Assembly: GCF_000697965.2 (NCBI RefSeq)
Contig: NZ_CP015882.1
Coordinates: 372,001-436,000, forward strand
Length of the DNA stretch: 64,000 nucleotides
Direction of reading: 5' to 3'
Source: Ensifer adhaerens
Lineage (GTDB): Bacteria; Pseudomonadota; Alphaproteobacteria; Rhizobiales; Rhizobiaceae
Of this stretch, positions 8,830-27,816 are shown piece after piece; position 1 is the stretch's first letter, and the number at the start of each line of letters is the position of its first letter. The translations under genes and the position numbers were made by a program. The notes beneath the pieces are model-generated. The model had not been told where the DNA came from. It saw only the letters and a list, made by a program, of their open reading frames with translations, and searched no databases.

Positions 8830-9152
8830 GGAGCGGCTTTTTCGACTGTATGTCAGAGTCAGATATCGCCTGTGGAAACTTGCTAGTTGTTGCGGCAAGT
8901 CAACGCGAGGGACGAAACGCGAACAGGCCGCTGTCGGGATCTTTATGTCCAGGGATCCCTGTAGATCCAATATCTGCGGCGATCTGATTGGATGTAATTC
9001 CGTTGCTACCATATGCATGGCGGCATGCGCCAATGCGACGTGGTACCCGCGCTTATCGTCCGCTTTCATGTTATCATGAAAACCAGATTGCAAGCATCCA
9101 CACAAGCGTCGAGTTCGTCTAGCGACACTGAGAATTACAGGGAGCAACGCCA

Positions 9153-9590: not shown

Positions 9591-9711
9591 GTTGACGCAG
9601 GCTATCAGTCAGCGACTGCTGGCCCAGCTTTCGCCTGAGCTGAGTTGAGTTGACAGCGCCGACACGTGCTCCAAACTCTGCTTTCATGGGTTATGGAGAC
9701 TTGTAGCCGCC

Positions 9712-10110: not shown

Positions 10111-10200
10111 AAAACTCGTACCTCCTCTACGTCCGCGTGTTTTTCCATTGGATCGGGCGTTACCGACATTCCGCCGGCATTCCCGAAACGGGAGACTGTC

Positions 10201-10570: not shown

Positions 10571-10732
10571 CGAAATGAACGGGCGGGCTTCCGATCGCCC
10601 GCTTAAGGCACATGCCCCTGGTGTGATAGCAACAAAGCAAAGCAGATATGTTCCGCTCTTGGCGTTGAACATCTGACCCTTTTGAAGCGGAACCTGCGCC
10701 CCCGACACAGCGTTCCAACGGGAGATCTGTGC

Positions 10733-11776: not shown

Positions 11777-12609
11777 GAAATGGCCCTCAGGGGCCGAAAA
11801 CTCGCGGGGCACGAGCCATCACTCGGCAGGAACGCCGCGACACGGGACTTCGTGCTGACGTTCGAGTATAAGGTATCATGTCGGATGCGGGAGACATCAC
11901 ACTTAATTGGCATCGTCGCTGATATCTCGAGCGGAGTGGCGGGCCGCCAGTCCGTTTCCGCTCAAAAGTGAGGGATAGGAGAAGAAAAGCACAATGAGCG
12001 ATCCAAGGCACGGCAAGTGTGCGCCAGGAGCGGCTTTTACTAAAATCGAATTGTCCAACGACGGGTTCGGGGCCGGTAGGGGAAGCCTGCTACAGGGCAA
12101 ATTCGTCGGAAAGCCGCCGTTCGGCAACCCACCCAAAGTCTGTTCTAGCTGCCGGCTTCTTCATCCCTCGACACCGATTGCCTCGACGACTTCACCAGCG
12201 GGATGTCAATTTCCGGGTGCCGGGCGGGTTATTCTGGAACGAGTCAGGGCCCGCGGTCCGGGTTACTTTGGCGGGCGGAAAGCCGTCGGCATCGGCGCGT
12301 ATTGGCCGTAGCGCTGGGAACAGCAGCTCCCTCAACACGGCGCGCAAGGTCCTGCCACTAAAGGCCGCATGGCCGACTTCATGGAAACCTTTCCAATGAC
12401 GGGACGGCGCTTTACGGCTGTGCAGAGTGGCTGAGGCTGACGTCGGGCCCGCACGTTAACGATTGACACTAGCTGTGATGGCAAACACAAACCATATTTC
12501 GCTGGTTCGATCTCCGCCGGCCTTGGCATCGACTTTGCGCCGGAATGTTGATCGGTTGCTGGGGGCGGACCGATGAATTGAGCCTGAGGCGCGCCAGGGC
12601 CTGTCTGTA
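11777..12609. other. Long intergenic stretch left of the organosulfur island
   Basis: About 830 bases with no supported gene. A rightward frame at 11994-12311 starts after a purine-rich GGATAGGAGAAG but its product shows no motif and overlapping frames are equally long. No insertion-sequence end or tRNA was seen that would explain an island boundary. Confidence 0.35.
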
Positions 12610-13908
12610 CTAGTACGGGAATGGCAATGCATAGCGCTCGCGAATGGTTTGTTCCTCGTAACGGTTACGATAAACACCGCGGTCCTGGAGGATCGGGACG
12701 ACCTTCTTCACGAATTCTTCGATGTCATCAGGTGCCCGGGGCGGCTGAAGCGTGTAGCCGTCGACGGTGCCGTCCGCCCAAAGGTCGATAAGCGCATCGG
12801 CGACCTGTTCCGGCGTCCCGAGCAGCAGGCGGTGGTGCCCTTCCGAGCGGCGCACAGCCTGCCTGGCCGTCAACTTCTCATGTGTCAGCAGATCGGAGAG
12901 ACCAAGGCCCATTCCGACCGCCTGAAGACGGTTGGGATCCGGAACGAAACGCTCGGCATCCAGAATGGCATCCGGATCGAAACCGTTGGGATCAATACCG
13001 TTCTCCCTGACGAAGCGTGCGATCAGGCCGTCCTCCGAGCCCGCGCCGCTGAAGAGTTCGTGTTTTCGCAACGCCTCCTCTTTCGTCTCGCCAAGGATCA
13101 CCACCACCCCGGGCACGATCTTAATGCCCTTCGGGTCGCGACCGATGGCTGCAGCGCGATCCCTGACCTTCTTGCCGAAGGCCTGGCCAGCAGGGCGGGA
13201 GAGGATGTTGCAATAAATGATCTCGCCATGGCGGGCGGCGAGCTCGATACCGCCTTCGGATGCGCCTGCCTGCGCGATCACCGGATGGCCTTGAGGGCCA
13301 CGCGGCACGTTCAGCGGTCCCTTCACTGCGAAATGATCGCCTTCGTGGTCGATCGCATGCGCACTCGCCGCATCCCAGAACCGTTCGTCGGGCACATGGC
13401 CGTCGCGGGCGGGATCCCAGCTTGCCCAGAGTTTCTTGGCAACATCGAGAAATTCGGAAGCTTTAGCGTAGCGCTCGGCTCGTGGGGGCAGCGGCGCCGA
13501 GCCGAAGTTGGCAGCCACATTCGGATTGAAGGACGAGACGATGTTGATGATCAGCCGGCCACCGGCCACGATATCCGTCGACTGGGTGCGGCGGGCGAGA
13601 TTATAGGGCGAATTGTATGTGGACGACATGGTTGCGACGAAGCCGATGTCGGGCACCTGTGCCGCAAGCGCCGTACAGAGGATGAGCGGGTCGATGGTAT
13701 GGAATGGTCGGCTGTTCGGGTCGGTCATCAAGGCTGGATGATCGGACAAGAACACGGCGTCGAACAGACCTTTGTGGGCGAGTTCCGTCAGGCGTCTGTA
13801 GTATTGAGGGTCATAGATGTCGTGGCGGCTCCCGCTGCGATATTTCCAGGCGGCCGGCAGATAGCCTGTCGTGTTGATGCCGACATTGAGATTGAGCGTG
13901 CGGGGCAT
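12610..13908 (-). CDS. LLM-class FMN-dependent monooxygenase, NtaA/SnaA/DszA family
   Basis: The 432-residue protein is a full-length bacterial luciferase-like barrel. It opens LNLNVGINTTGYLPAAWKYR, has SRPFHTIDPLILCTALAAQ and the FATMSSTYNSPYNLARR block typical of the NtaA/SnaA/DszA branch, and ends with the GTPEQVADALIDLW segment. These enzymes use FMNH2 from a separate reductase to hydroxylate or cleave heteroatom compounds; DszA cleaves the C-S bond of a sulfone. It is the last gene of the leftward operon 20044->12610, beside two DszB-like proteins, which favours a sulfone or sulfonate substrate. No flavin reductase gene was recognised nearby. Confidence 0.85.
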   Translation of the reverse strand: MPRTLNLNVGINTTGYLPAAWKYRSGSRHDIYDPQYYRRLTELAHKGLFDAVFLSDHPALMTDPNSRPFHTIDPLILCTALAAQVPDIGFVATMSSTYNSPYNLARRTQSTDIVAGGRLIINIVSSFNPNVAANFGSAPLPPRAERYAKASEFLDVAKKLWASWDPARDGHVPDERFWDAASAHAIDHEGDHFAVKGPLNVPRGPQGHPVIAQAGASEGGIELAARHGEIIYCNILSRPAGQAFGKKVRDRAAAIGRDPKGIKIVPGVVVILGETKEEALRKHELFSGAGSEDGLIARFVRENGIDPNGFDPDAILDAERFVPDPNRLQAVGMGLGLSDLLTHEKLTARQAVRRSEGHHRLLLGTPEQVADALIDLWADGTVDGYTLQPPRAPDDIEEFVKKVVPILQDRGVYRNRYEEQTIRERYALPFPY

Positions 13909-13923: not shown

Positions 13924-14574
13924 TCAATAGGCCGCGGTGAAGCGGCGGCGGATGAACTGTCCCTTGTCGAGTTCATCGAGAATGGCGACGGCGAAATCGG
14001 CTTCGGAAATCCGGCTTTCGCCCGTATCGTCTCGCAGAAGCGCATCCTCGCCGAGCCTGAAACGGCCGGTTCTTTCGCCGGCCTTGATCGAAAGAGGCGG
14101 GGATACATAGGTCCAGTCGAGATCGTGCTCGCCGCGTTTCAGACTGCGCAGGATCTCTCGGTTTCGCAGCGTGTGAGCCTTGTGGTCCGCCGGGTAGAAA
14201 TCACTGTCGACCACGTCGACGCCGGGGCTTGCCTGGAGGCTTCCGACGCCGCCGACGATGATGATGCGGCGGACGCCGGCGCGCTTGACGCCTTCAAACA
14301 GGGAAGCATGTGCATTCTCGATGAGAACCGCGGCATCTTCCGCCGAATGGCGGCGCAGACCGGGACTATAGGCACTGATGACCGCATCGTGGCCGGCGGA
14401 GATCTTTGCCACTTCCTCCGGATCGGCAATGTCCGCCTTCAGTGCCGTGAGACGCTCGGCAGGTTCCAGGTTTGAAGAGCGCGTCACGGCTGTCACGCGG
14501 TGATTTCGCGAAAGAGCTTCCTTGCGGATGTTGCTGCCGATGTTTCCTGAGGCGCCGAAGACGACAATGGACAT
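13924..14574 (-). CDS. NAD(P)-binding oxidoreductase, NmrA/YwnB-like
   Basis: The 216-residue protein has an N-terminal Rossmann motif (VFGASGNIGSNI), a segment RRIIIVGGVGSL and the LDWTYVSPPLSIKAGERTGR block of the atypical short-chain NAD(P)H-binding family. It lies between the DszA-like monooxygenase (15 bases) and the FAD monooxygenase (19 bases) in one operon. It could reduce a product of the oxygenases or act as a redox partner. Catalytic role unknown. Confidence 0.8.
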   Translation of the reverse strand: MSIVVFGASGNIGSNIRKEALSRNHRVTAVTRSSNLEPAERLTALKADIADPEEVAKISAGHDAVISAYSPGLRRHSAEDAAVLIENAHASLFEGVKRAGVRRIIIVGGVGSLQASPGVDVVDSDFYPADHKAHTLRNREILRSLKRGEHDLDWTYVSPPLSIKAGERTGRFRLGEDALLRDDTGESRISEADFAVAILDELDKGQFIRRRFTAAY

Positions 14575-14593: not shown

Positions 14594-15844
14594 CTAAAGG
14601 GCAGGTATCGCCTTGAGCGGTTGATTGGCGCCGACATTGCGCTGCATGGCGGAAAGCGACGACCGTACGGCCTCGTAGCCGTGTTCGCGCATGGCGTTTT
14701 CGTAGTCGTTTAAGGCCGCAAGCAGTGGCTTGCCTTGGCGCCTTGCGGCGACGAGTTCGCGTACGAGCAATCCGGAATCGTAGAGGGCGGTGTTGCCGCC
14801 AAGCGCGCGGAAATAGGTCATCGCGTGGATCGCGTCGCCGAGTAGCGTCACCGGACCGCTTTGCCATACCGCGCCGGGTGTGGAGCTCTTGACCTTGAGG
14901 AAGGCGACCGTCGACGTGTCGCTGTGGCGAATGAGGTCCAGGATGCGCTCATCCCAGTGACGGATACGGTGAAGCAGCGTTTCGATGAGGGCCGCGCCGT
15001 TGAGCCGTTCGAGCAGTTCGTCCGGCCCGAGTTCATCCGTATCATAGGCCGTGTTCCACCAGGTGTAGCTGGTGGAGTTGTTGAAGTGGAAGCCAGGGAT
15101 ATCGGCATGGCCGGGATCTTCCCTGCCTATGAAATCGTGACGCGCATAGGCAGACGGATCCACCCGATGGCTGGTGATCATCAGACCACGACCGTCGCGC
15201 GGGCGGATGTTGGTATTGAACTCGGTCAGCAGCGGTGAAATGCCCTGTCGTTCCGCTTCATCGATCGTGATCTTGCCGGCCAACCGGCGTACCCCAGTGT
15301 CGATGCTCTTGAGGTCAGGCAGGAGTTGGCGACGCACCGCCGATCCCGCCCCGTCGGCCCCGACCAGAAGATTGGCGTGTACGGCCGAGCCGTCGGAAAA
15401 ATGCGCAAGCACGGTTCCGTCGGCAAGCTGCTCATAGCGCTCGAACCGTTTGCCTGTGTGAAAAAGGCCGTCGAGCCCGGACAGGAGGATCTGGCGTAGC
15501 GTGATGCGGCTGACCGATTTCTCGATATGCGTATCTTCGGGTTCGCCTGATCCCTGGCTCGTGTTCTCGAGCCTTTGGAATGTCTCATCGAGAACAAGGT
15601 TTTCCGTCGGCGCAAGCCCGAGCGTATCAAGGAAGGCTTGAAAGAGGTGCGCCGGAAGGTTCGCCTGAAGCGCGTCGATGCCCCGTTGCCGGATCCGCAT
15701 GCGGAAACCCTGCACATAGTCCGACCGGACCTCGTCGCGCTCGAAGACGGCGGTGTCGATGCCATTCTTCTTGAGGCCTTGCGCCAGGGCGAGCCCACCC
15801 GGTCCCCCACCGATGATGGCGACGTCGATGAAGGGTATGGTCAT
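14594..15844 (-). CDS. FAD-dependent aromatic-type monooxygenase
   Basis: The 416-residue protein has the dinucleotide motif IIGGGPGGLALAQGL at residues 9-23, the second FAD contact LVGADGAGSAVRR and the third motif LLGDAIHAMTYFRALGGNTA. These define the PHBH/TetX-like single-component NAD(P)H hydroxylases. It starts four bases inside the stop of the upstream NmrA-like gene (overlap 15841-15844), which indicates translational coupling. In this operon it may hydroxylate an organosulfur or aromatic carrier molecule; the substrate cannot be told from sequence. Confidence 0.85.
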   Translation of the reverse strand: MTIPFIDVAIIGGGPGGLALAQGLKKNGIDTAVFERDEVRSDYVQGFRMRIRQRGIDALQANLPAHLFQAFLDTLGLAPTENLVLDETFQRLENTSQGSGEPEDTHIEKSVSRITLRQILLSGLDGLFHTGKRFERYEQLADGTVLAHFSDGSAVHANLLVGADGAGSAVRRQLLPDLKSIDTGVRRLAGKITIDEAERQGISPLLTEFNTNIRPRDGRGLMITSHRVDPSAYARHDFIGREDPGHADIPGFHFNNSTSYTWWNTAYDTDELGPDELLERLNGAALIETLLHRIRHWDERILDLIRHSDTSTVAFLKVKSSTPGAVWQSGPVTLLGDAIHAMTYFRALGGNTALYDSGLLVRELVAARRQGKPLLAALNDYENAMREHGYEAVRSSLSAMQRNVGANQPLKAIPAL

Positions 15845-16719
15845 GGCTGGTACTCGGGGACCGCGGTTTCGGCGGTCACTTGTTCGAGGATGAAGTCGGC
15901 GACGGTACGGGGCGAACGGCCAAGCAGCGTTGGAACGACGTCGGTCGTCGTCGCGGCGCGACCGGCAGCGATCAATCTTACGAATTGCGCAACGGCGCGG
16001 TGTTCGAAGTCACCCTCTTTTGGAACCGTCCGGGGCGGCTTCTCGAGGGCAGCAACCGGCCGTTTCAATGCAGCCGTCAGCAGAGCGGCGACCTGCCGGA
16101 ACGACACCACGTCCGGGCCGGTGAGGTTGAGCGTGCGCCCCCGAATGCGATCGGCCAGAAGTTGGTGCACGGCGACATCGGCGATGTCGCGCGCGTCGAT
16201 GTAGCCGATGCCGGCGTCGAGGTTGGCTGCGACGACCTGACTGTTCGTGATCGCGTTCCGGATGGTGTTGGCGAGCGAGACCTGCATCCAGGCATTGGGA
16301 CGAAGCGAAACAGCCTCGGTCGGAAGGCCATTCAAGTGCCGTTCCACGGCAGCGTGCGCTTCACCGGAGATAGAATTCCCTGGCGGCTCGATCGTCCAGT
16401 CGGAGCCCGAGATCTTGACGATGCGGGCAACATTTGCGGCGACGGCAGCATCGGCGACGGCGACCTGGTCCGTGACGAGCCTCGTGCTGATGGGGGATAA
16501 CAGAAGAAGGCGTCCGACGCCTCGAACGGCCGTGTCGAGCGCGGCGCGGTCGCCAAAATCACCTGCGGCAATCTGCAGAGTTTCACCGAACAGGGCACGT
16601 GCCGTCTCCGGGCGTCGGGTAAAGACGCGAACCGGTTGTCCGCGTGCGAGAAGTCGTTCGACAACGAGGCGCCCAAGCTTGCCGGTGGCGCCAGTAACGA
16701 GGATCGGCCTCTCACTCAT
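15841..16719 (-). CDS. NmrA-like NAD(P)-binding protein
   Basis: The 292-residue protein opens LVTGATGKLGRLVVERLLAR, the NmrA/TMR Rossmann signature, and contains IGYIDARDIADVAVHQLLAD. It overlaps its upstream neighbour, a DszB-like gene, by four bases at 16716-16719 and its downstream neighbour by four bases at 15841-15844, so the three are coupled. NmrA-like proteins are either redox-sensing regulators or NAD(P)H quinone-type reductases; the YxxxK catalytic pair of classical SDRs is not evident. Confidence 0.8.
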   Translation of the reverse strand: MSERPILVTGATGKLGRLVVERLLARGQPVRVFTRRPETARALFGETLQIAAGDFGDRAALDTAVRGVGRLLLLSPISTRLVTDQVAVADAAVAANVARIVKISGSDWTIEPPGNSISGEAHAAVERHLNGLPTEAVSLRPNAWMQVSLANTIRNAITNSQVVAANLDAGIGYIDARDIADVAVHQLLADRIRGRTLNLTGPDVVSFRQVAALLTAALKRPVAALEKPPRTVPKEGDFEHRAVAQFVRLIAAGRAATTTDVVPTLLGRSPRTVADFILEQVTAETAVPEYQP

Positions 16720-17750
16720 GCGGCGGCCCGCTGCAAGGCGGCCTCTAGCGGTCGGCGATCAATCCAACTGAAGACGTCGAAATCGGCCGGAATGAACTGC
16801 CAATCGAGAAGGAAGCGCTTGAAGTGGTCGAACGCGGCGATCTGGTTTTCGTCCAACGCCAGACCGAGATGACGGTGGACGTCCGCGCCGTTCGCCGCCC
16901 AGACGGCGTCCTCCCCGACGCCGATCTCGTTGGCGATGAACCGAACTGCTGTGTCCGGGTTCGAGGCCGCCCAATCACCAACACTGGCGACGGTCGACAC
17001 AAGATCGACGACGAGGTCGAAATGCTGGTCAAGAAAGCGGGCGTCGACTGTCAGCGGCCTTGGCGTGCCATTGTTGATGCGGATCTTTGGATCCGGATGG
17101 AAACCGAATTCCGCCACCACAACTGCACCAATCTGATTGGCGAGCACGATGCCTTCTGCACCTTTGACGAAGAAAGCGTCGATCTTGCCCGAGGCCAGGG
17201 CCAAGAGTTCCTCGCCATAGGGATATCGGCGCTTCAGGCCCAGGAAGGCGGCGTTGCCCCGTTCGATGAGGTTGCCCTCGTTGGTGTCGAGATAGACGAG
17301 TTCGACATCACCGTGATCAAGGCCGTCGAGCGAAAGCGCCGAGACGATGCCTTTCAAGGCGGTGGCCCGCTGGAAGTCGACGACGTCGGAACTGGGCTTG
17401 CGTGGTACACCGATGCGGCGGCCTTTCAAGTCCTTCGCGACAGCGATCCCGGAACCTGGAAGCGCGATAATCGCCTGGAACTCGTCTGTCGTGGTGATGC
17501 CGACAACGCGTGTGGCGCGGCCGCCGGACCGCGCCCAGATCGGCGGAATGTTGCCGCCCTGTCGGAACGAGTAATCGAGCGCATGGGTAAAATGGCTCTG
17601 GCGGACCGACGGATCCTTGCTGTCGCGGATCGAGCGGACGGCAACGCCGGCGTTCTCAAACTGTCTGTCGATCCAGCCGAGCTGATGGGCGATCGACAAT
17701 GGTGTCGGGGCGGGGCAGCGCGTGTACCAGACGGAAGAGAGGGAAGACAT
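16716..17750 (-). CDS. DszB-like desulfinase homologue (periplasmic-binding-protein fold, no signal peptide)
   Basis: A start at 17750, with AGGAG at 17759-17763, gives 344 residues (MSSLSSVWYTRCPAPTP). The family would be called an aliphatic-sulfonate ABC binding protein, but there is no signal peptide. The catalytic residues of 2'-hydroxybiphenyl-2-sulfinate desulfinase DszB line up: Cys12 in the CPAP motif (DszB Cys27 in CPVP), His53 in SHFTH (His60), Arg63 (Arg70) and Gly66 (Gly73) in FRQGGNIPP. The His-to-Arg spacing of 10 and Arg-to-Gly spacing of 3 are the same. A cytoplasmic C-S lyase acting on a sulfinate is therefore more likely than transport. A binding-protein role without a signal sequence remains the alternative. 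Confidence 0.7.
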   Translation of the reverse strand: MSSLSSVWYTRCPAPTPLSIAHQLGWIDRQFENAGVAVRSIRDSKDPSVRQSHFTHALDYSFRQGGNIPPIWARSGGRATRVVGITTTDEFQAIIALPGSGIAVAKDLKGRRIGVPRKPSSDVVDFQRATALKGIVSALSLDGLDHGDVELVYLDTNEGNLIERGNAAFLGLKRRYPYGEELLALASGKIDAFFVKGAEGIVLANQIGAVVVAEFGFHPDPKIRINNGTPRPLTVDARFLDQHFDLVVDLVSTVASVGDWAASNPDTAVRFIANEIGVGEDAVWAANGADVHRHLGLALDENQIAAFDHFKRFLLDWQFIPADFDVFSWIDRRPLEAALQRAAA

Positions 17751-17760
17751 CAGGGAACTC

Positions 17761-18993
17761 CTAGCGGCCGCCGACGACGGCAAGACGAGGTTGCTGGGGA
17801 GGTCGAACGGGGACCGGCTCGAGCGCAACCGCAGGTGTTGCGGCATGCCGGCTGAACGCAGCCTTGGCAAGCATCGTCCGGATCAGGTTGTTTTGCGGCG
17901 CGTGCGCCTTGCCGGAAAGCGCATCGCGATGATGGCGTTCCAACGGATTGTCGCGACTGATGCCGGGGTTACCGCCCAGTTCGAGCGCAAGGGTCGTCAC
18001 GGTGATCGCGTTGGCGATGACCGTGTGTTTGACCGCGGCGGCATCGGCGCCGAAGGGGCGCCCCGCATCGAAATCCTCGGCGATCGAGCGCAGGAGCCGG
18101 CGGTTGACCGTCAGCAAGACCTCGATTTCGCCAAGGCCATCCTGGATGCGGGGAACGGTGGAGAGCGGTGCGCCGAGGCTTGCCGGTGCGCGCGAGGTCG
18201 TAAATTCGATCAGCCAGTCGCGTGCCCCGCGGGCAGCACCGTCGTAGATCGCGGGGACCAGTGAGAAATACCAGGCGCCCATGCGCTCGTCACGTTTCAG
18301 GCCTTCGCTCGCCGGCGCGATGTCGAGAACATCGGCGAGCGGGATCGCGACGTCGTCGAGGATCAGGTCGTCGCTGTTGGTTGCTCGCATGCCCGTTGCG
18401 TTCCAGGTTTTTTCGACGCGGATGCCATCGGCCGATGTCGGAACGAGGAATGAGCCCAGCCTCGGCTCAGGCTCGTCAGTAACCGCAAGCACAGCCACCC
18501 AGCGCAAGAGCGGGATGCCGGTGGCGTAGGTCTTGTGGCCCGTAATGCGCCACTGATCGCCAACGCGGCGGGCAATCGTTTCGGGCAAGGAACCATGCGA
18601 TGGCGAACCGACGCGCGGCTCCACCTGTGCCGCATTGATGAGCGCGACACCCTCGCGATTGGCCCGGGTGACACGCTCGACAAGGTGGGGCGGCCACTTG
18701 CCTGAGGTTCGCACCGAAAAGTGCTGATTGTAGTGCATCGAAAGAACGAGAGCAGTCGATGGCTCTCCACGCGCGATTGCCGAGACGACCGCCAGCGCTT
18801 CCGTCAGTCCACCGCCGAGGCCCCCGTGTTCGAGCGCTGTGACCAGGCCAAGCAGCCCCGCCTCGTGCAGCGCGTCGAAATTGGCGAAGGGGAATTCGCC
18901 AGTTTCATCATAGTGGCGTGCTGTCAGGGCGAAGCGTTTTCCGAGTTCTTCGGCCGTGGCAATCACCGGTTCGAAACGTGTGGGGTCGGTCAT
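17761..18993 (-). CDS. Acyl-CoA-dehydrogenase-fold flavoprotein, possible DszC/SfnB-type monooxygenase
   Basis: A start at 18993 (MTDPTRFEPVIATAEELGKR) gives 410 residues; an upstream extension to 19230 lies over another gene. The N-terminal helical domain (EFPFANFDALHEAGLLGLVT), middle beta domain (RITGHKTYATGIPLLRWVAV) and C-terminal four-helix domain (LERHHRDALSGKAHAP) are those of the acyl-CoA dehydrogenase superfamily. It sits between two DszB-like genes, so a role as an FMN-dependent oxygenase such as DszC or SfnB is plausible. A true dehydrogenase is the alternative. Confidence 0.8.
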   Translation of the reverse strand: MTDPTRFEPVIATAEELGKRFALTARHYDETGEFPFANFDALHEAGLLGLVTALEHGGLGGGLTEALAVVSAIARGEPSTALVLSMHYNQHFSVRTSGKWPPHLVERVTRANREGVALINAAQVEPRVGSPSHGSLPETIARRVGDQWRITGHKTYATGIPLLRWVAVLAVTDEPEPRLGSFLVPTSADGIRVEKTWNATGMRATNSDDLILDDVAIPLADVLDIAPASEGLKRDERMGAWYFSLVPAIYDGAARGARDWLIEFTTSRAPASLGAPLSTVPRIQDGLGEIEVLLTVNRRLLRSIAEDFDAGRPFGADAAAVKHTVIANAITVTTLALELGGNPGISRDNPLERHHRDALSGKAHAPQNNLIRTMLAKAAFSRHAATPAVALEPVPVRPPQQPRLAVVGGR

Positions 18994-19006
18994 CGGCTTT
19001 ACTCGT

Positions 19007-20044
19007 TCAGGCGACAGCGCGGGCGTCGAGTTCCGCCCAGGGGCGCTGGTCGACCCATTGGTCGATGTCGAAGTTGCTCGCGAGGAACCCCCATTCATGC
19101 AGGAAGTCCTTGTAGTGTCCGATCGCCGCGACGAGTTCCGGTTCGAGGCCGATGCCGAGATGTTTGTGGAGATCCGGACCGTTAGCCGCAGCCACGACCT
19201 CTTCTGAGGCGCCGACTTCGCGGGCAACAAAGCGACGCACCTCGTCGGGGTGCTCTTCGGCCCATGAGCCGGCCTGTTTCAAGGTCGAGATCAGCTTGGC
19301 GACGAGATCGGGCCGATCTTCAGCGAGCCTTTCGTCGACGGTCAGCACCCGAGGGGAGCCGGAATTGATGCGGATCTTCGGGTCCGGGTGGAAACCGAAT
19401 TCCGCGACCGTGTGAGCCGCAAAGAGATTGGCGACGGCAATACCGGGCGTGCCTTTGACATAAATCGCGTCCACCTCACCGCGCAGCAGTGCGGCCGCTT
19501 CCGGCCCGTAGGCCTGCCGGTTTCTGAGGCCGTAGAGCTGCGGGCCCTCCCTGCCATCAAGAACGCTTTCGGAAAGCGGGATATCGACGATCTCGACATC
19601 GGAGGGCGTGAGCCCTTCGAGAGACAGAGCGGAAACCAGGCCCTTCAGCGCCGTAGCTGCCATGAAGTCGACGATACCGGGTGGTCGGCGCGCAATGCCG
19701 AAGCGCCGGCCGACAAGATCGCGCGTCGTTTTGATCCCGGTCTCGGGCAACGTGATGATGGCCTGGAATTCGTCGGTCCAGGTGATGCCGACGAGCCGCG
19801 TCGGGTTGCCTTCCGAGCGGGCGCGGATCGGCGGGACGTTGCCGCCATGGCGAAACGAATAATCGAGATGGTGATCGAAGTGGCTGGATCGGACGGAGCG
19901 GTCCTTGCTGTCGATGATCGAGTTGAGCGTAATGCCCTCCGTGGCAAACGCCTTGTCGAGCAGGCCGAGCTGGGTGGCGAGCCCCACGGGTGTCGGGACA
20001 GGGCAGCGCGTGTACCAGATTTGCGAGATGGCATTTTTTGTCAC
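19007..20044 (-). CDS. DszB-like desulfinase homologue, second copy
   Basis: The 345-residue protein starts at GTG 20044 and is the first gene of the leftward operon. It is a clear paralogue of 16716-17750 and also lacks a signal peptide. The DszB catalytic set is present: Cys14 in YTRCPVP (the CPVP tetrad is identical to DszB), His55 in SHFDH, Arg65 and Gly68 in FRHGGNVPP, with the same 10 and 3 residue spacings. The two copies differ enough to suggest different substrates or a heteromer. Automated annotation would call it an ABC transporter substrate-binding protein. Confidence 0.7.
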   Translation of the reverse strand: MTKNAISQIWYTRCPVPTPVGLATQLGLLDKAFATEGITLNSIIDSKDRSVRSSHFDHHLDYSFRHGGNVPPIRARSEGNPTRLVGITWTDEFQAIITLPETGIKTTRDLVGRRFGIARRPPGIVDFMAATALKGLVSALSLEGLTPSDVEIVDIPLSESVLDGREGPQLYGLRNRQAYGPEAAALLRGEVDAIYVKGTPGIAVANLFAAHTVAEFGFHPDPKIRINSGSPRVLTVDERLAEDRPDLVAKLISTLKQAGSWAEEHPDEVRRFVAREVGASEEVVAAANGPDLHKHLGIGLEPELVAAIGHYKDFLHEWGFLASNFDIDQWVDQRPWAELDARAVA

Positions 20045-20344: not shown

Positions 20345-21331
20345 ATGCCGGTGCTGATCAGAATTGCGCGAACGCTTCGACGAACGCTTCTGCAGGCAGT
20401 TCCAACGATCCTTGGAATTGTGATCCTGAACTTTTTCCTTTTGCAGCTGGCTCCCGGCGACGCGGCCGATGTGCTTGCCGGCGAGGCGGGTTCGGCGACC
20501 GAAGAAAGCGTTGCGGCACTGAGAGCCCGCTTCGGCCTGGATAGTCCGGTGCTCGAGCAATTGGCCACCTATCTCGGCAACCTCGCGCAATTCAGCCTTG
20601 GATTTTCCCCGCGCTACGGCATGCCGGTCGCCGACCTGATTGCGCAGCGCCTGCCCGGAACATTGACGCTGATGGCGGTGGCACTCGTCATCGCGATCGT
20701 CCTCGGTGTCATCCTCGGATCGCTGATGGCGACGTTTGCGGGGCGGATCCCCGATCGGCTTTTGTCGATCTTCTCGCTGCTCTTCTATTCGATCCCGAGT
20801 TTCTGGATCGGCCTGATGCTGATCGTGCTCTTCTCGGTCAAGCTCGGCTGGTTGCCGACCGGGGGTGCAGGCACGATCGGATCCCAGCTGAAAGGGTTCC
20901 CGGCGCTCTTCGACAAGGCCCGCTACATGGTGCTCCCGGCAACGTCGCTCGCGCTTTTCTACGTCGCGATCTATGCGCGGCTGACGCGCGCCGCCATGCT
21001 CGAAGTCAAAAACCAGGACTTTGTCCGCACTGCCTATGCCAAGGGGCTGACGCCTTATGGCGTCACCGCGAGGCATATCTTGCGAAACGCGTTGATCCCG
21101 ATCACGACCATGGCCGGCATGCACATCGGCGGCATGCTCGGCGGCGCCGTGGTGGTGGAAACCGTCTACAGCTGGCCGGGCCTTGGCAGGCTCGCCTTCG
21201 AGGCGGTCATGGGCCGGGATTTCACCGTGCTCCTCGGCATCCTGCTTCTGTCCTCACTTCTCGTCATCATTGCCAATGCCACGGTGGACCTTGTCCACGC
21301 CTGGCTCGACCCTCGAATTGGAGCGCGCTGA
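20345..21331 (+). CDS. Dipeptide/oligopeptide-type ABC transporter permease (DppB-like)
   Basis: The 328-residue protein has six hydrophobic segments and the binding-protein-dependent permease motif in the cytoplasmic loop (YAKGLTPYGVTARHILRNAL). The first segment TILGIVILNFFLLQLAPGDA is characteristic of DppB/OppB. It opens a rightward operon of two permeases, two ATPases and an aldo/keto reductase; its stop overlaps the next start by one base. The operon has no binding protein of its own. The only peptide-type binding protein in the island is at 27817, and it is the likely partner. Confidence 0.88.
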   Translation: MPVLIRIARTLRRTLLQAVPTILGIVILNFFLLQLAPGDAADVLAGEAGSATEESVAALRARFGLDSPVLEQLATYLGNLAQFSLGFSPRYGMPVADLIAQRLPGTLTLMAVALVIAIVLGVILGSLMATFAGRIPDRLLSIFSLLFYSIPSFWIGLMLIVLFSVKLGWLPTGGAGTIGSQLKGFPALFDKARYMVLPATSLALFYVAIYARLTRAAMLEVKNQDFVRTAYAKGLTPYGVTARHILRNALIPITTMAGMHIGGMLGGAVVVETVYSWPGLGRLAFEAVMGRDFTVLLGILLLSSLLVIIANATVDLVHAWLDPRIGAR

Positions 21332-22329
21332 TGTCCGCCACCGACTTCGGAGCTTTCCCAGCGGTTACGGGCGGCGCCTATGCCGCTCCTGCCACGAGCG
21401 AGCAGGCTACCGCGCCGGAGCGCCCGTCCTGGTCCAACGTAAAGGCGCCCGATGCGCGCTCCCAGCAGAGCACTGCGGTCGCCATTACCAATGGGCGAAG
21501 GGCCCTCAAGGTCTTTCTGGCCAACCCCAATGCCCTGTTCGGAACGGCCTTCCTTGCGCTTGTGATCGCCGTCGCGCTGCTGGCTCCAGTGCTTTATCCC
21601 GACGACCCGCTGTCGATGGTCGGAAAACCGTTCCTGTGGCCGGGCCAGGATCCGGCTTTCCCGCTCGGCACGGACGCGCTCGGCCGCGACGTGCTCGCTG
21701 GCATCCTGCATGGCTCGCGCATTTCCCTGTTCGTGGGGCTGATGGCAACAGCGCTCGGTCTCACCTTCGGCGTGATCGTCGGCGCGATCGCCGGTTACTT
21801 CGGCGGCTGGATCGACGATCTCCTGGTGCGGCTGATCGAGATCTTCCAGACCTTGCCGAGCTTCGTGCTGCTCGTCGTTCTGGTCGCGATCGTCCAACCC
21901 TCGGCATCAACGGTGACGCTTGCGATCGCCGTCATTTCCTGGCCGACGGTGGCAAGGCTGACCAGGGCCGAGTTTCGTGCGATCCGAGAGAAGGATTTCG
22001 TCATGGCCGCCCGCAGTCTCGGCTTTGGCCATGGACGGATCATCTTCCGCGAGATCCTGCCCAACGCGCTGCCACCGATCATCGTGACGTCATCGGTCAT
22101 GGTCGCCACCGCAATCCTGATGGAATCCGCACTTTCCTTCATGGGTCTCGGCGACCCCAATGTCGTGAGCTGGGGCTCGATGATCGGTACCGGTCGCGAA
22201 CTGGTCCGGACCGCCTGGTACCTGACGGCCCTTCCGGGCCTCGCCATCGTCTTTACGGTGCTTGCGCTCAATCTCATCGGCGACGGGCTGAACGATGCCC
22301 TTAACCCCCGCTTCACGCAGGATCGTTGA
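21331..22329 (+). CDS. Dipeptide/oligopeptide-type ABC transporter permease (DppC-like)
   Basis: The 332-residue protein has an unusually long hydrophilic N-terminus of about 65 residues before the first membrane helix (LFGTAFLALVIAVALLAPVL). It then has the DppC signature FPLGTDALGRDVLAGILHGS and the EAA loop MAARSLGFGHGRIIFREILP. It pairs with the DppB-like protein to form the membrane channel. Starts at the ATG at 21331-21333, overlapping the preceding TGA. Confidence 0.88.
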   Translation: MSATDFGAFPAVTGGAYAAPATSEQATAPERPSWSNVKAPDARSQQSTAVAITNGRRALKVFLANPNALFGTAFLALVIAVALLAPVLYPDDPLSMVGKPFLWPGQDPAFPLGTDALGRDVLAGILHGSRISLFVGLMATALGLTFGVIVGAIAGYFGGWIDDLLVRLIEIFQTLPSFVLLVVLVAIVQPSASTVTLAIAVISWPTVARLTRAEFRAIREKDFVMAARSLGFGHGRIIFREILPNALPPIIVTSSVMVATAILMESALSFMGLGDPNVVSWGSMIGTGRELVRTAWYLTALPGLAIVFTVLALNLIGDGLNDALNPRFTQDR

Positions 22330-22331
22330 CG

Positions 22332-23330
22332 ATGGCGCCGCTGCTCCAGGTCGGAGACCTCACCATCGGCTTTCCGCGTGCCGAGCCAGTCAGAAATCTC
22401 TCGTTCGAGGTGGGGGCGGGGGAGACGCTGGCGATCGTCGGCGAGTCCGGTTCGGGCAAATCGTTGACCGCGCTCGCGCTGATGCAGTTGCTGCCGCGCG
22501 CAGCACGGGTGACCAGCGGCCGCATCGTCTTTGACGACCGCGATCTTCTGGGGCTCGATGCGCGCGAGATGCGGCAGCTGCGTGGGCGCGACATCGCCAT
22601 GATCTTTCAGGAGCCGATGACGAGCCTCAATCCGGTCATGTCGATCGGCCGGCAGATCGGCGAAGTGCTGAAGGTGCACGAGAAGCTTTCAGGTCGAGCG
22701 GCGCGGGAACGCGCGATCGAACTTTTGAAGCTCGTGCGTATTCCTGCCGCCGAAAAGCGGGTCGACGATTATCCGCATCAGCTGTCGGGCGGCATGCGCC
22801 AGCGGGTGATGATTGCCATGGCGGTTGCGTGCCGGCCAAAGTTGCTGATCGCCGACGAACCGACGACGGCGCTCGACGTGACGATCCAGGCGCAGGTGCT
22901 CGACCTGCTCGACACGCTCAGGCGCGAGCTTCAGATGGCTGTGGTGTTGATCACCCACGACCTCGGCGTCGTCGCGCAATGGGCCGACAAGGTCGTCGTC
23001 ATGTATGCCGGCCGCAAGGTCGAGCAGGCCTTGCCCGGAGATCTCTTCAACGATCCGCTGCATCCCTATACGCGCGGGCTGCTTTCGGCCTCGCCACGGC
23101 TAAAGAACGACCTTCACTATCTGAGCGGCCGCTTGACGGAGATCCCCGGGTCGATCGTCTCGGCGGCCGGCGAGGCCGGCTGTCCCTTCAGGCCGCGCTG
23201 TCGCCAGGCGCGTGCGAGCTGCGGCCATCAGGTGCCGCCGCTGATTGCTCAGACGCCGGAGAGGCTCGTTGCCTGCCCGTTCACTTCGTCCCTCAAGGCC
23301 GTGCCCGATGCCGCTCATCTCAGCCTCTGA
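22332..23330 (+). CDS. Dipeptide-type ABC transporter ATP-binding protein (DppD-like)
   Basis: A start at ATG 22332 gives 332 residues, two bases after the permease stop. Walker A (GESGSGKS), signature ([14 protein letters not shown]) and Walker B ([16 protein letters not shown]) are intact. The C-terminal oligopeptide/dipeptide transporter extension with a Cys motif ([14 protein letters not shown]) is present, as in DppD/OppD. It powers uptake together with the next gene, whose start overlaps its end by 23 bases. Confidence 0.88.
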
Positions 23331-24252
23331 TCTGAAGACACACTACAAGACGCGCGACGGCCTCTTGCGCTCCGTCGATGGCGTCGATCTCGTGGTCGAG
23401 CGCGGTGAAACCGTCGGGCTTGTCGGCGAAAGCGGCTGTGGCAAGTCGACGCTTGGCAAGACGCTTTTGCGCCTGGTCGATCCGACCGAGGGGCGGATCG
23501 AATTCAAGGGCGAAGACATCACGAGACTTGACCAGGGTCGGCTCAGGAACGTGCGCAAGTCGATCCAGATGATCTTTCAGGATCCCTTCGCGTCGCTCAA
23601 TCCGCGCCACACGATCGGTGAAATCCTGGAGGCGCCTCTGATCGTGCACAGGGCCGGCAGCCGAGCGCAGCGGCGTGACACCGTTGCCGGCATCATCTCC
23701 AAGGTCGGGCTGCCCGCCGATGCCATCAATCGCTATCCGCACGAATTCTCGGGCGGCCAGCGGCAAAGGATCGGCATTGCCCGCGCGCTGCTGCTCAACC
23801 CGGACCTGATCGTTTGCGACGAGCCCGTATCGGCGCTCGACCTGTCGATCCAGGCGCAGATCCTGAACCTTTTGGTGGAGATGAAGAAGGAGTTCGGTCT
23901 TTCCTATCTTTTCATCAGCCATGACCTGTCTGTGGTGCGTTATTTCTGCGACCGGGTTTTGGTCATGTATCTCGGCCGGATCGTGGAAAGCGCCGACAAT
24001 GAGACGCTCTGGTCGGACCCGCGCCATCCCTACACGCGCGCTTTGATGGCTGCGGTTCCCGATCCCTCGCGGCCGCGGCAGGCGGCTCCCCTTGGCGGCG
24101 ATCTGCCGAGCCCGAGCGACATTCCGTCGGGCTGTCGGTTCCACACCCGCTGCCCGCTGGCGACGGACCTCTGCCGCGTCACCGAACCCGAATTCCGCGC
24201 CATCAAACCGGGCCATCAGGTGGCCTGTCATGTCGCGGACCAGATCAACTGA
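23308..24252 (+). CDS. Dipeptide-type ABC transporter ATP-binding protein (DppF-like)
   Basis: A start at ATG 23308 ([14 protein letters not shown]) gives 314 residues. Walker A (GESGCGKST), signature (FSGGQRQRIGIARAL) and Walker B (VCDEPVSALDLSIQ) are complete, with the Cys-containing C-terminal extension CRFHTRCPLATDLC. Second ATPase of the heterodimer. The 23-base overlap with the upstream ATPase gene implies coupled translation. Confidence 0.88.
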   Translation: MPLISASDLKTHYKTRDGLLRSVDGVDLVVERGETVGLVGESGCGKSTLGKTLLRLVDPTEGRIEFKGEDITRLDQGRLRNVRKSIQMIFQDPFASLNPRHTIGEILEAPLIVHRAGSRAQRRDTVAGIISKVGLPADAINRYPHEFSGGQRQRIGIARALLLNPDLIVCDEPVSALDLSIQAQILNLLVEMKKEFGLSYLFISHDLSVVRYFCDRVLVMYLGRIVESADNETLWSDPRHPYTRALMAAVPDPSRPRQAAPLGGDLPSPSDIPSGCRFHTRCPLATDLCRVTEPEFRAIKPGHQVACHVADQIN

Positions 24253-24266: not shown

Positions 24267-25328
24267 ATGGTTGAGTATCGCTATCTTGGGCGCAGCGCCC
24301 TCAAAGTGTCGCCGCTGACGCTCGGATCCATGATGTTCGGCAACCAGACGCCTGACGACGTTGCCTTCCGCATCATCGACAAGGCGCGCGAGCAGGGCAT
24401 CAACTTCATCGACACGGCCGACGTCTACCACGACGGGAAGTCGGAAGAGGTGGTCGGGCGCGGCATCAAGGCCAACCGCGACCATTGGGTGGTGGCAACG
24501 AAGTTCGTCAATTCGCGTGCGAAGGGGCCGAACCTCGGGGGCTATTCGCGCAAATGGGTCTATCAGACTGTCGAAAACTCGCTGCGCAATCTCGGCACGG
24601 ACTACATCGACATCCTCTACTTTCATCGCGCCGTCTTCGATGCGCCGCTCGAAGAGCCGGTGCGGGCGATCGCCGACCTGATCAAGGCCGGCAAGCTGCG
24701 CTATTTCGGGGTCTCAAACTTCCGGGGATGGCGCATTGCGGAAGTCGCCCATCTCGCCGACCAGCTCGGCATCGATCGGCCGATCGCAAGCCAGCCACTC
24801 TATAACATCGTCAACCGCACCGCCGAGGCCGAGCAGCTGCCGGCGGCTGCAGCCTATGGACTGGGTGCTGTGTCCTACAGCCCGCTCGCCCGCGGCGTTC
24901 TGACGGGCAAGTACAATCCCGGCGAAGCGCCAGCTGCCGATACCCGCGCCGGACGCGGCGACAAGCGCATGCATGACGTGGAGTTTCGCGAAGAATCGGT
25001 GGCGATCGCCAAGGAGATTGCCGCACACGCGAAGGCCAAGGGAATTGCTGCCGCCGATTTCGCGCTCGCCTGGGTGCTGAACAACCGGCTGATCACCTCG
25101 ACCATCGCAGGGCCCCGCACGGAAGAGCATTGGGATGGCTATATCCGCGCGCTGGACGTCAAGCTCGATGCGGAAGACGAGGCGCTGGTTGATCGCCTGG
25201 TCGCGCCCGGTCATCCGTCGACACCGGGCTTCACGGATCCGGGCCACCCGCTCGAAGGCCGTGAGCCGCGGTCCGGCGCGGGCGAAGCCGAGATCATCCC
25301 GCTCGCCCGCTCGCAGCGCGTCGCTTGA
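24267..25328 (+). CDS. Aldo/keto reductase
   Basis: The 353-residue TIM-barrel protein has the catalytic tetrad of the family: Asp and Tyr in FIDTADVYHDGKSE, Lys in WVVATKFVN and His in ILYFHRAVFD. The C-terminal NADPH-binding block ITSTIAGPRTEEHW is also present. It is the last gene of the transporter operon, 14 bases after the ATPase. It may reduce an aldehyde left after C-S cleavage of an imported compound; that is inference from position. A strong terminator follows at 25377. Confidence 0.85.
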   Translation: MVEYRYLGRSALKVSPLTLGSMMFGNQTPDDVAFRIIDKAREQGINFIDTADVYHDGKSEEVVGRGIKANRDHWVVATKFVNSRAKGPNLGGYSRKWVYQTVENSLRNLGTDYIDILYFHRAVFDAPLEEPVRAIADLIKAGKLRYFGVSNFRGWRIAEVAHLADQLGIDRPIASQPLYNIVNRTAEAEQLPAAAAYGLGAVSYSPLARGVLTGKYNPGEAPAADTRAGRGDKRMHDVEFREESVAIAKEIAAHAKAKGIAAADFALAWVLNNRLITSTIAGPRTEEHWDGYIRALDVKLDAEDEALVDRLVAPGHPSTPGFTDPGHPLEGREPRSGAGEAEIIPLARSQRVA

Positions 25329-25416: not shown

Positions 25417-26370
25417 CTATTCCGCAGCTACGGCCTGCTGGTGCCTGAGGCCGAGAAGGCGCCGGGCGTTGCCGCCAGCAACGAGACGTGCCTCCTGATC
25501 GCTTAGTCCCGCTTGCTCCAAGCTCTGCCGCAACGCGTCCGCATCGAGCGCAGGAAGAATTGGCCAGTCCGTGCCGGCAAGCACGCGGTCTGCGCCGAAA
25601 AAGCCTGTCAGCGTGCGTACGATGTCCGGATCATGCCCCATCGTGTCGAAGTAGATATTGGGCCGTCGCCCCGCTTCCCTGGCAGAGCGAGCATAGATGC
25701 CGCCGCGTGCCGCCTGGACAATCGCGCCCAGACCGAGCGTTGCAAAGACCAGATGCAGGTCTGGCAGTTCGTCAAGAAGCGGAGACTGGCTGACCGACAG
25801 GAAGGCGACGCCGTTCATCAATCCACGCCCGAGCGAGTTGCCGAGATTGCCGGCGCCGTCGATCAGAACGCCGGCGTCCGGGTGGGCGACGGGATGCACG
25901 AAAACCGGAACCCTGTGGCGCGCCGCAACTTCGAGCGTGGGGCGGACGGCGGGATCGGCGATGAACTTGCTGGCGCGTGAACTGTCAATCACCAGTCCTG
26001 AAAGACCGAGCTCGACGATTGCCCGCTCGGCTTCGCGGGCCGCTTCGTCGCCGGCAAAGGCATCGACGACGGCAAATCCGGTGAGGGTAGAATGCTCGCG
26101 CGAAAGCGTCGCCAGCCAGTCGTTGGCCTCCCGGACGGCTTCAAGCGGTATGCTTGCCTCCAATCCGAAGAGGCTTTCGATCGTCGCCGTGACCACAGCG
26201 AGCGACACGCCGCCTTGTTCAAGTTCGTCGACCAGCGCCTGAGGCGTCGTGATCTTTCGATGTATCTCCGGCGAAAATGCGCCAGCGGGCTTTTCGTATT
26301 TGCCTCCGGGACGCCAGGCTGGCGGCCAGAGATGGGCATGGATGTCGACGATATCGAGCGGAGCGGTCAT
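25417..26370 (-). CDS. Amidohydrolase_2 family metal-dependent hydrolase/decarboxylase
   Basis: The 317-residue protein has the metal-binding HxH at its start (VDIHAHLWPP), a mid-barrel histidine segment (VPVFVHPVAHPD) and the terminal motif LAGTDWPIL. These mark the Amidohydrolase_2/ACMSD-like family of hydrolases and non-oxidative decarboxylases. It overlaps the SsuD-like monooxygenase stop by four bases (26367-26370), so the two are coupled; it probably processes the product of that oxygenase. Substrate not deducible. Confidence 0.82.
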   Translation of the reverse strand: MTAPLDIVDIHAHLWPPAWRPGGKYEKPAGAFSPEIHRKITTPQALVDELEQGGVSLAVVTATIESLFGLEASIPLEAVREANDWLATLSREHSTLTGFAVVDAFAGDEAAREAERAIVELGLSGLVIDSSRASKFIADPAVRPTLEVAARHRVPVFVHPVAHPDAGVLIDGAGNLGNSLGRGLMNGVAFLSVSQSPLLDELPDLHLVFATLGLGAIVQAARGGIYARSAREAGRRPNIYFDTMGHDPDIVRTLTGFFGADRVLAGTDWPILPALDADALRQSLEQAGLSDQEARLVAGGNARRLLGLRHQQAVAAE

Positions 26371-27467
26371 TCGGCGGCAACCTTTCTCGCTTGGCGTTCA
26401 GCAATGCCAGCTTTGACCAGCGGCACGACATCACGCCCATAGGTGACGGTATCTTCTGTCGGGTAGAAGCCACGAACGAGGAAGTTGGAAACGCCCGCGT
26501 CGTAATAGTCGAGGATGGCGTCGGCGACCTGTTCGGGTGTCCCGACAAGAGCTGTCGAATTTCCGCCGGCGCCACTCGCTTCTGCGACTTCGGTCCAGAG
26601 CCGCTTGTCCAGCACCTTGCCGCGGCTGGCGGCCTGCCGCAGGCGAACAGAACCGACGTTAGATGGCAGCTTCTCGCCGTTGCCGCCGGCCGAGCGCGCG
26701 ACCTGTGACTTGACCTTCTCGAGGATATCGGCCGCCTTTGCCCAGGCGGCGTCTTCGGTCTCAGCCACGACGGTGCGAAAGGCGAGGGTGAAGCGGATAT
26801 CGTCTGCCGCGCGACCATTGGCAATCGCCGCTGTGCGTACCTTGCCTATGGTTTCCCGTGCGCCGTCGAGCGGTTCGCCCCAGAGCGCATAAATATCGGC
26901 GTGCTTACCGGCAACGGCGATCGCCGCATCGGACGAACCGCCGAAGGAAATCGGGATACGGGGCTTCTGGAACGGCTTTACCTGGCTATAGGCGCCCTTG
27001 AACCTGTAGAAGCGCCCCTCGTGATCGAAGGGCTGATCGCTCTCCCAGACTTTCCTCAGCACCTGCAGATACTCGTCGGTGCGGGCATAGCGGGTGTCGT
27101 GATCCTCGAAGTCGCCGTCGCGAGCCTGGTCCGTGTCGGATCCGCCGGTGATGATATGCACCCACAAGCGGCCTTCGGAGAACTGATCGAGGGTGGCAAG
27201 CTGGCGCGCGCCGAGTGTCGGGGCCATCAGGCCGGGCCGGTGGGCAAGCAGCGCCCCGATCCGGTCGGTCTGGCTGAAGACATAGGCGGCGATCTGGTTG
27301 TTGTCGGGCCATTGCGCGAACTGGCCGATCAGCAGACGATCGATGCCGGCGGCCTCCGCGGCCTGCACGTGATTGCGAATATAGGTCTTGTCGATGACCG
27401 GACCGGAGGCCGGCACGATGTCGGACCCTTCCCTGTTGGACGTATGGCCGATGAATTCGGGACGCAT
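26367..27467 (-). CDS. SsuD-like LLM-class flavin monooxygenase with altered active site
   Basis: The 366-residue luciferase-like protein aligns with alkanesulfonate monooxygenase SsuD over its length (GGSSDAAIAVAGKHADIYAL, WGEPLD, TALVGTPEQVADAILDY). However, residues important in E. coli SsuD appear replaced: the Cys54 region reads IGQFAQWPD, Arg226 and His228 of IRLHV become Ala and Arg in LAFRTV, and the Arg297 loop reads EASGAGG. FMNH2-dependent oxygenation of an organosulfur compound is likely, but probably not of simple alkanesulfonates. It is the first gene of a two-gene operon with an AATCTA-type element 36 bases upstream of its start. Confidence 0.82.
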   Translation of the reverse strand: MRPEFIGHTSNREGSDIVPASGPVIDKTYIRNHVQAAEAAGIDRLLIGQFAQWPDNNQIAAYVFSQTDRIGALLAHRPGLMAPTLGARQLATLDQFSEGRLWVHIITGGSDTDQARDGDFEDHDTRYARTDEYLQVLRKVWESDQPFDHEGRFYRFKGAYSQVKPFQKPRIPISFGGSSDAAIAVAGKHADIYALWGEPLDGARETIGKVRTAAIANGRAADDIRFTLAFRTVVAETEDAAWAKAADILEKVKSQVARSAGGNGEKLPSNVGSVRLRQAASRGKVLDKRLWTEVAEASGAGGNSTALVGTPEQVADAILDYYDAGVSNFLVRGFYPTEDTVTYGRDVVPLVKAGIAERQARKVAAE

Positions 27468-27816
27468 GGAGAACTCCTTCAGAATGCTGGGCGCGCAGAT
27501 CGCAATAATCTATTTATCATATGTATTTTGTCGATTGCTTTTTGCCCGCCGATCTTGGGATGGATTGTCGTGCGATGGGCCCTTCGGGAACTTTTCCTCC
27601 ACCAAGGCGGCTTTTACAGACACTCATCCTGTCTGCGTGCACATCGCCGGTCCGGCAAAGGCTTCGGCGTGAGTAGCTTTTTTCAGAAAAGCCCTGGACT
27701 TTAGAATTACACTATCTCGATAAATATAGTAGATTTTATAAAGTCTGGCTAACACCCTGACAGGGGTGCTGGAGAAATCGGCGTTGCCTGTGCTTCGCCT
27801 GCTAGGGGATACTCAG
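27468..27816. promoter_or_regulatory. Divergent control region with two AATCTA-type elements
   Basis: This AT-rich region lies between the SsuD-like gene (leftward) and the binding protein gene (rightward). CAATAATCTATTTATCATAT (27503-27522) lies 36 bases from the left start. At 27720-27739 the plus strand reads ATAAAT-N8-TTTTAT; its complement begins ATAAAATCTA and matches the element before 38242 at 15 of 20 positions. These are candidate operators of one regulator. Confidence 0.5.

Follow-up and report, generated by a model that had tools for sequence, protein, structure and literature searches.

Two genes of Ensifer adhaerens carry the Pfam label NMT1 and raise the question of whether their products bind a substrate for an ATP-binding cassette (ABC) importer or are enzymes related to the desulfinase DszB. 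They lie in a stretch of 64,000 nucleotides (contig NZ_CP015882.1, positions 372,001 to 436,000; hereafter the window) on C3, a replicon of 1.46 Mb in a three-contig genome of 7.27 Mb. An original prediction, made from the sequence of the window alone, had located both open reading frames (ORFs) and proposed that the products keep the DszB active site. Our analysis favours, with a probability of roughly 0.78, the reading that both proteins, termed copies A and B, act in the cytoplasm as cofactor-free sulfinate desulfinases built on the type-II periplasmic binding protein (PBP) fold, and that they belong to a proteobacterial sister subfamily of DszB. Both ORFs were found at the predicted positions:

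19007..20044, minus strand: copy B, putative DszB-like desulfinase, 345 amino acids (aa) from a GTG; C14, H55, R65, G68
16716..17750, minus strand: copy A, putative DszB-like desulfinase, 344 aa from an ATG; C12, H53, R63, G66

According to the ORF list, an upstream TTG would extend copy A to 384 aa. We kept the ATG because the orthologue of Sinorhizobium meliloti is annotated with 344 aa.

Active-site residues

To locate the catalytic positions, we aligned both proteins with residues 21–352 of the DszB structure 2DE2. The columns of DszB Cys27, His60, Arg70 and Gly73 held Cys12, His53, Arg63 and Gly66 in copy A and Cys14, His55, Arg65 and Gly68 in copy B, which bears out the prediction that all four residues are kept. 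The spacings from His to Arg (10) and from Arg to Gly (3) are those of DszB, and the (I/V)PP block said to follow the Gly is common to A, B and DszB. The spacing from Cys to His, which the prediction did not mention, is 41 in both copies versus 33 in DszB. According to the available part of PMC6100217, the C27S variant of DszB is inactive and H60Q is ∼17 times less active; Ser25 hydrogen-bonds His60, and Arg70 is part of an R-x-G-G motif conserved among homologues. In our alignment of 246 rows, the column of Ser25 holds Thr in 240.

The quartet is complete in 237 of these rows (L001–L003 and L089–L102, which repeat other loci, were left out; the alignment still contains some near-identical rows). 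The nine exceptions comprise two short rows with a gap at the Cys (P0051 and P0070), one row with a non-homologous start (L110), one with Ser/Tyr, one without the His, and four Ser copies. A chance motif was considered and rejected: the quartet at loose spacing, found in 12 of 568 window ORFs of at least 60 aa, both copies included, was set aside as evidence, and the full signature CP.P...H[FY]...R.GG matched A and B only.

Kinship with DszB and absence of an evident signal peptide

Profile search, tree and fold comparison agreed in placing A and B on the side of DszB rather than of SsuA/NrtA, as had been predicted. DszB ranked above SsuA by profile and fold comparison, both copies have the DszB fold, and sequence kinship also put them nearer DszB, with a small margin in plain BLASTP. 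The tree was built on 56 chosen rows, and alignments A1 and A2 comprised 41 chosen rows.

The claim that neither protein has a signal peptide also held, as judged from the N-termini and hydropathy: neither shows a basic stretch followed by a hydrophobic one. By a hydropathy measure that separates incompletely, the most hydrophobic 15-mer of the first 60 residues scored 0.39 in A and 1.01 in B, compared with 1.38 in a DszB control and 1.46–2.37 in ten of the genome's 11 other NMT1 proteins. NMT1 matches occur at 13 places in this genome, and the 11 besides A and B show signal-like stretches near the N-terminus by eye; none of the 11 carries the full signature.

The SsuA-family model TIGR01728 scored the two copies at 64 and 75 bits, below its cut-off of 163.5; with this score and no evident signal peptide, neither copy is placed in that family. 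The SsuA of the window (42629–43654), which has a signal peptide by eye, scored 326 bits. An annotated desulfinase encoded beside dszC on a mycobacterial plasmid scored 65 bits with the same model. Since this desulfinase scores like the two copies, the label is no argument for a binding protein.

Residues that distinguish the subfamily

By sequence, A and B fall outside DszB in the strict sense, the 2'-hydroxybiphenyl-2-sulfinate desulfinase: they are 24–28% identical to DszB, DszB residues Tyr63, Trp225 and Ser253 are replaced, and eight extra residues lie between Cys and His. The longer spacing of 41 recurs in 280 of 285 rows with the complete Cys, His, Arg and Gly quartet (CHRG). Over 361 rows (the two DszBs, P0051, P0070 and L110 left out), conservation of 95% or more combined with a difference from DszB is seen, among others, at Arg52 and Arg225 (numbered as in copy B), which face gaps in DszB, as well as at His58 (Tyr63 in DszB), Lys197 (Trp225), Asn227 (Arg248) and Arg232 (Ser253). 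Copy A carries the same residues. In a predicted model, several of them follow strands, the usual place of the cleft in the PBP fold, and we therefore infer a substrate that would be more polar than 2'-hydroxybiphenyl-2-sulfinate and perhaps carboxylated.

The original prediction spoke of a new C-S lyase subfamily. Its distinctness from actinobacterial DszB stands; the novelty does not stand in full, as some members already bear the names desulfurase or desulfinase, and protodesulfination is a better term than C-S lysis.

Two diverged copies and Cys/Ser pairs

The prediction had placed two diverged copies in a single operon, and A and B are indeed 53% identical and fall into separate clades of the tree (support 100/94 and 98/94). 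Their places in separate supported clades rule out a recent tandem duplication. A targeted search through copy B kept 80 of 109 loci (11 of the 80 are cut short, and matches at E 1e-10 include distant ones). Copy A is present in 16 of the 80, and all 16 also hold relatives of the acyl-CoA dehydrogenase (ACAD)-fold flavoprotein and of the DszA-like gene described below. One locus with both copies is that of Chelatococcus asaccharovorans (L017).

A different arrangement was observed in four genomes of the same phylum (G058, G146, G387 and G062), where a Cys copy and a copy with Ser in place of the Cys stand in tandem, with 107–125 bases between the matched parts (L104, at 8858–9919 and 10000–12486, L105, L106 and L112). 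The Ser copy reads WYTHSPVP at the position of the catalytic Cys. Among the best 120 of 973 matches to a Ser-copy query, a sample that the query biases to the Ser clade, 72 have Ser and 48 have Cys; where names are given, most of these listed matches come from Pseudomonas or genera close to it. Besides the Cys, three positions set the Ser rows apart from the 48 Cys rows in this list (90% criterion). In an enlarged, similarly biased set reduced at 80% identity, 48 of 64 representatives have CHRG. The Ser copy, a natural analogue of the inactive C27S variant, suggests a maintained binding or regulatory partner.

Gene cluster and neighbourhood

The two copies belong to a run of seven genes on the minus strand, from 20044 to 12610, with gaps of at most 19 bases and two junctions overlapping by 4 bases (starts as chosen). 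The other members, from 20044 downwards, are:

17761..18993, minus strand: ACAD-fold flavoprotein, loosely DszC/SfnB-like, 410 aa, between the copies (Pfam ACAD domains)
15841..16719, minus strand: NmrA-type NAD(P)-binding oxidoreductase, overlapping copy A by 4 bases (PF13460/PF05368)
14594..15844, minus strand: flavin adenine dinucleotide-dependent monooxygenase (PF01494)
13924..14574, minus strand: NAD(P)H-binding protein, possible flavin supplier (PF13460)
12610..13908, minus strand: NtaA/SnaA/DszA-family flavin mononucleotide (FMN) monooxygenase, last gene of the run (TIGR03860, 386 bits; cut-off 279.7)

The flavoprotein between the copies starts at the chosen ATG at 18993, and its S. meliloti orthologue is annotated with equal length. 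It is 23% identical to an annotated DszC. Curated models place it loosely, with acyl-CoA enzymes scoring level with SfnB, and its closest solved structures are 5z8t/5gj7 (218 bits), for which the only literature match was an off-topic one on rat gut microflora. Because two aligned His columns, including a C-terminal H-x-P, are common to this protein and DszC, it would be a monooxygenase rather than a dehydrogenase, a reading that draws on the role of the DszC histidines. The NAD(P)H-binding protein is best matched by 4jgb ('putative exported protein') and 3dhn among solved structures; its relatives also include 4r01 and 3h2s ('putative NADH-flavin reductase'). The FMN monooxygenase at the end of the run is 32% identical, over most of its length, to the luciferase-like monooxygenase (LLM) gene upstream of the desulfinase and dszC genes of pMyong1, presumably DszA. 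The run holds relatives of DszA, DszB and DszC, but its A-like and C-like members do not match DszA or DszC specifically. A DszABC system proper is not claimed, since these partners are relatives at family level only.

Beyond the run, the neighbouring genes are as follows, with the number of copy B loci that hold a relative:

20345..21331, plus strand: peptide-type ABC permease, OppB-like, divergent from the run (PF00528; Opp/Nik models below cut-offs; 78 of 80 loci)
21331..22329, plus strand: peptide-type ABC permease, OppC-like (position and sequence; 77 of 80)
22326..23330, plus strand: peptide-type ABC ATPase, OppD-like (position and sequence; 77 of 80)
23308..24252, plus strand: peptide-type ABC ATPase, OppF-like (PF00005, PF08352 oligo_HPY; 77 of 80)
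24267..25328, plus strand: aldo/keto reductase (PF00248; 75 of 80)
25417..26370, minus strand: Amidohydrolase_2 protein (PF04909; 15 of 80)
26367..27467, minus strand: SsuD/SfnG-like FMN monooxygenase (alkanesulfonate monooxygenase model 216 bits, below the cut-off of 518)
27766..29448, plus strand: family-5 peptide-type periplasmic binding protein (PF00496, 328 bits; 79 of 80)
29540..30763, plus strand: SfnB/DszC-like flavoprotein (SfnB model 275 bits, below the cut-off of 431; 61 of 80)

Around the relatives of copy B, an ACAD/SfnB-type relative occurs in 78 of the 80 loci and an LLM relative in 75. Solved relatives of the flavoprotein at 29540..30763 are 8cda, TdsC, MsuC and DszC. Two further sulfonate/nitrate-type ABC transporters lie at 30987–33513 and 40629–43654, each with an NMT1-family binding protein, a permease and an ATPase (the last two by eye). 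Because of these two transporters nearby, the region looks, from its gene content, like an organic-sulfur island.

Related arrangements were observed elsewhere. On pSymA of S. meliloti M162, an annotated sulfite oxidase (L103, 17242–18636) adjoins the orthologous cluster; a sulfite oxidase beside the window cluster was sought and rejected, as the best match to the S. meliloti protein lies elsewhere on the replicon (C3:119867–120910, 40%). On the same plasmid (L103, 2977–4310), only short ORFs are annotated for the SsuD-like monooxygenase and for the amidohydrolase, and tblastn matched 381 bases of the monooxygenase, so this monooxygenase gene may be decaying. A plasmid of Rhizobium sp. ACO-34A (L085, 2823–9059) holds a DszB-like gene after ABC transporter-like genes (permease, ATPase and binding protein, by eye) and an SsuD-like monooxygenase gene, all annotated 'hypothetical protein'. 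On a plasmid of Sphingobium sp. TomTYG65 (L088, 5459–12302), three DszB-like genes, annotated 'monooxygenase' and one of them with the gene name soxB, stand next to ssuABC and ssuD.

Proposed mechanism and pathway

The favoured mechanism of DszB is an electrophilic substitution in which the Cys proton displaces SO2 (PMC6100217, in its available part). By analogy, substrate binding in A and B would move the His beside the Cys, the Arg of R-x-G-G and the following Gly would grip the sulfinate, and the Cys thiol would protonate the sulfur-bearing carbon as SO2 (sulfite) departs. In the pathway that we propose, the substrate would enter via the peptide-type transporter and its thioether would be oxidized to a sulfone by the DszC/SfnB-type flavoproteins (17761–18993 and 29540–30763). 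The FMN monooxygenase at 12610–13908 and/or that at 26367–27467 would then cleave one C–S bond to yield a sulfinate and an aldehyde or alcohol. In the last step, copy A or B would release sulfite that a sulfur-limited cell could assimilate; the aldehyde fragment may be reduced by the aldo/keto reductase. The analysis itself establishes homology, active-site residues, fold, the absence of an evident signal and the gene neighbourhood; catalysis, co-transcription, the order of steps and the assignment of substrates to copies are what we infer. The cluster looks like a second, non-fuel version of the DszB pathway.

Alternative explanations

Several observations weigh against the desulfinase reading. 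Identity to DszB is 24–28%. In plain BLASTP, copy B scored 90 bits to a DszB versus 75 bits to the window's SsuA, and the Foldseek template-modelling score by query length was 0.72 for DszB and equally for SsuA (3uif). Long branches meet where the tree splits from the binding proteins. Hydropathy separates incompletely, with the DszB control at 1.38 and the lowest of the ten exported-looking proteins at 1.46; moreover, several of the 11 other NMT1 proteins show the signal-like stretch after an internal start, and for one of them, L118, the reading by eye concerns a stretch within a 636-residue ORF. Two relatives depart from the quartet, one with Ser/Tyr replacing Cys/His (L013, 843–1943) and one without the His (L088, 5333–6508). 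Among evenly drawn genomes, relatives at E 1e-15 occurred in 7 of 398 of the phylum and 6 of 151 of the family (the own genome counted both times), so the breadth of the subfamily rests on targeted searches. Among solved structures, the FMN monooxygenase at 12610..13908 is nearer EDTA monooxygenase (306 bits) and YtnJ than DszA (191 bits), and neither DszC/SfnB-type gene reaches the curated DszC or SfnB cut-off. Finally, the favoured DszB mechanism requires an aryl or vinyl carbon, which the substrate here may lack.

The NMT1 label, the weak SsuA-family scores, the 24% identity of copy B to the window's SsuA and the names of most named relatives listed would suit ordinary SsuA/NrtA-like binding proteins of a sulfonate ABC importer, mis-started or otherwise exported. 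We nevertheless regard this as very improbable: no signal is evident, and the Cys motif starts at residue 12–14, in the place of a signal; the peptide-type transporter nearby has its own family-5 binding protein; DszB outranks SsuA by profile and fold; and the 11 other NMT1 proteins are signal-like by eye and lack the signature. It is about as improbable that A and B are cytoplasmic sensor domains, binding-protein-like regulators that would respond to an organosulfur compound much as the NrtC/CmpC C-terminal domain does to its ligand, as that match is ∼14 Z units weaker than the one to DszB, Pfam gives NMT1 only, with no fused ATPase or DNA-binding domain, and sensing needs no strictly kept Cys/His/Arg set. 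PBP-fold enzymes of other chemistry, such as a cofactor-free decarboxylase or lyase acting on the carbon skeleton (compare 4,5-dihydroxyphthalate decarboxylase and MqnD), are highly doubtful: their matches are far weaker than that of DszB, the DszB quartet is kept, and relatives of sulfur-type monooxygenases adjoin 73–78 of the 80 loci.

That A and B differ in function, one being a desulfinase while the other serves as a binding partner or acts on a second sulfinate, has an appreciable but less than even chance. The old divergence into two clades, the occurrence of A in 16 of the 80 B loci, always with the ACAD-fold and DszA-like relatives, and the pairing of Cys and Ser copies in Pseudomonas relatives point this way, and the quartet and the family-specific charged residues, whole in both window copies, point the other. 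A broader proposal, which we consider unlikely, concerns both the substrate and the organization of the subfamily. Its natural substrate would be a polar aryl or vinyl sulfinate from plants or soil, not a fuel thiophene, and its members would work in paralogous pairs. In Rhizobiales the substrate range would be divided between two Cys copies; in Pseudomonas an active Cys copy would be accompanied by a Ser partner that is conserved yet catalytically dead. If true, the Pseudomonas pair would make up one desulfinase from two proteins, one half of which binds or regulates.

Comparison with known systems

The original prediction held that the dsz pathway is not known from rhizobia. This is not supported: Sinorhizobium sp. 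KT55 is cited as a desulfurizer of benzothiophene (Tanaka et al. 2001, as cited in the available parts of PMC3868597, PMC6630823 and PMC4327732). A 4S pathway is also reported for a Chelatococcus strain, on peptides matching actinobacterial Dsz proteins (PMC4839641, in its available part). Among the best 120 of 701 matches, some relatives from Ensifer, Devosia and Rhizobium are named 'desulfurase', and among the best 120 of 973 some from Pseudomonas are named '2'-hydroxybiphenyl-2-sulfinate desulfinase'; others among these matches are called monooxygenase, and most named ones 'ABC transporter substrate-binding protein' or similar. Because members already bear these names and both KT55 and Chelatococcus are cited as desulfurizers, the subfamily is a diverged variant of a known desulfinase type rather than wholly new. 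No paper on rhizobial DszB-like enzymes was found among the matches listed from the open-licence literature, nor was the strain name of Rhizobium sp. SYY.PMSO, which suggests a sulfoxide. In its available part, PMC4053727 does not have the cluster among the organic-sulfur clusters of 48 Sinorhizobium genomes.

DszB catalyzes the rate-limiting, cofactor-free step of biodesulfurization (PMC6100217, in its available part), and DszB entries were the sole desulfinase found in our PDB searches. A diverged proteobacterial branch would offer natural sequence variation around the DszB active site and a route to the physiological role of desulfinase chemistry outside fossil fuel. It would also correct misleading transporter annotations and supply candidate genes behind the benzothiophene desulfurization for which a Sinorhizobium strain is cited.

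SsuA, TauA and NrtA (2x26, 3uif and 6ssy) have the PBP-II fold and oxyanion ligands in common with A and B; by contrast, the window's SsuA has a signal peptide and lacks the Cys/His/Arg set, and these proteins match less well by profile and fold. THI5, MqnD and 4,5-dihydroxyphthalate decarboxylase, which appeared among the fold matches, are PBP-II-fold enzymes with chemistry other than desulfination. DszB resembles the copies in its fold over nearly the whole length, its Cys/His/Arg/Gly set and His-Arg-Gly spacing, the R-x-G-G motif and (I/V)PP block, the lack of an evident signal peptide, and DszA/DszC-type neighbours; unlike DszB, A and B occur as two copies beside a peptide-type transporter and an aldo/keto reductase. 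BdsA of the benzothiophene operon bdsABC of Gordonia terrae C-6, likened here by its description in the available part of PMC3868597, is likewise a desulfinase with DszC- and DszA-like partners, but it is actinobacterial and the operon holds one desulfinase gene.

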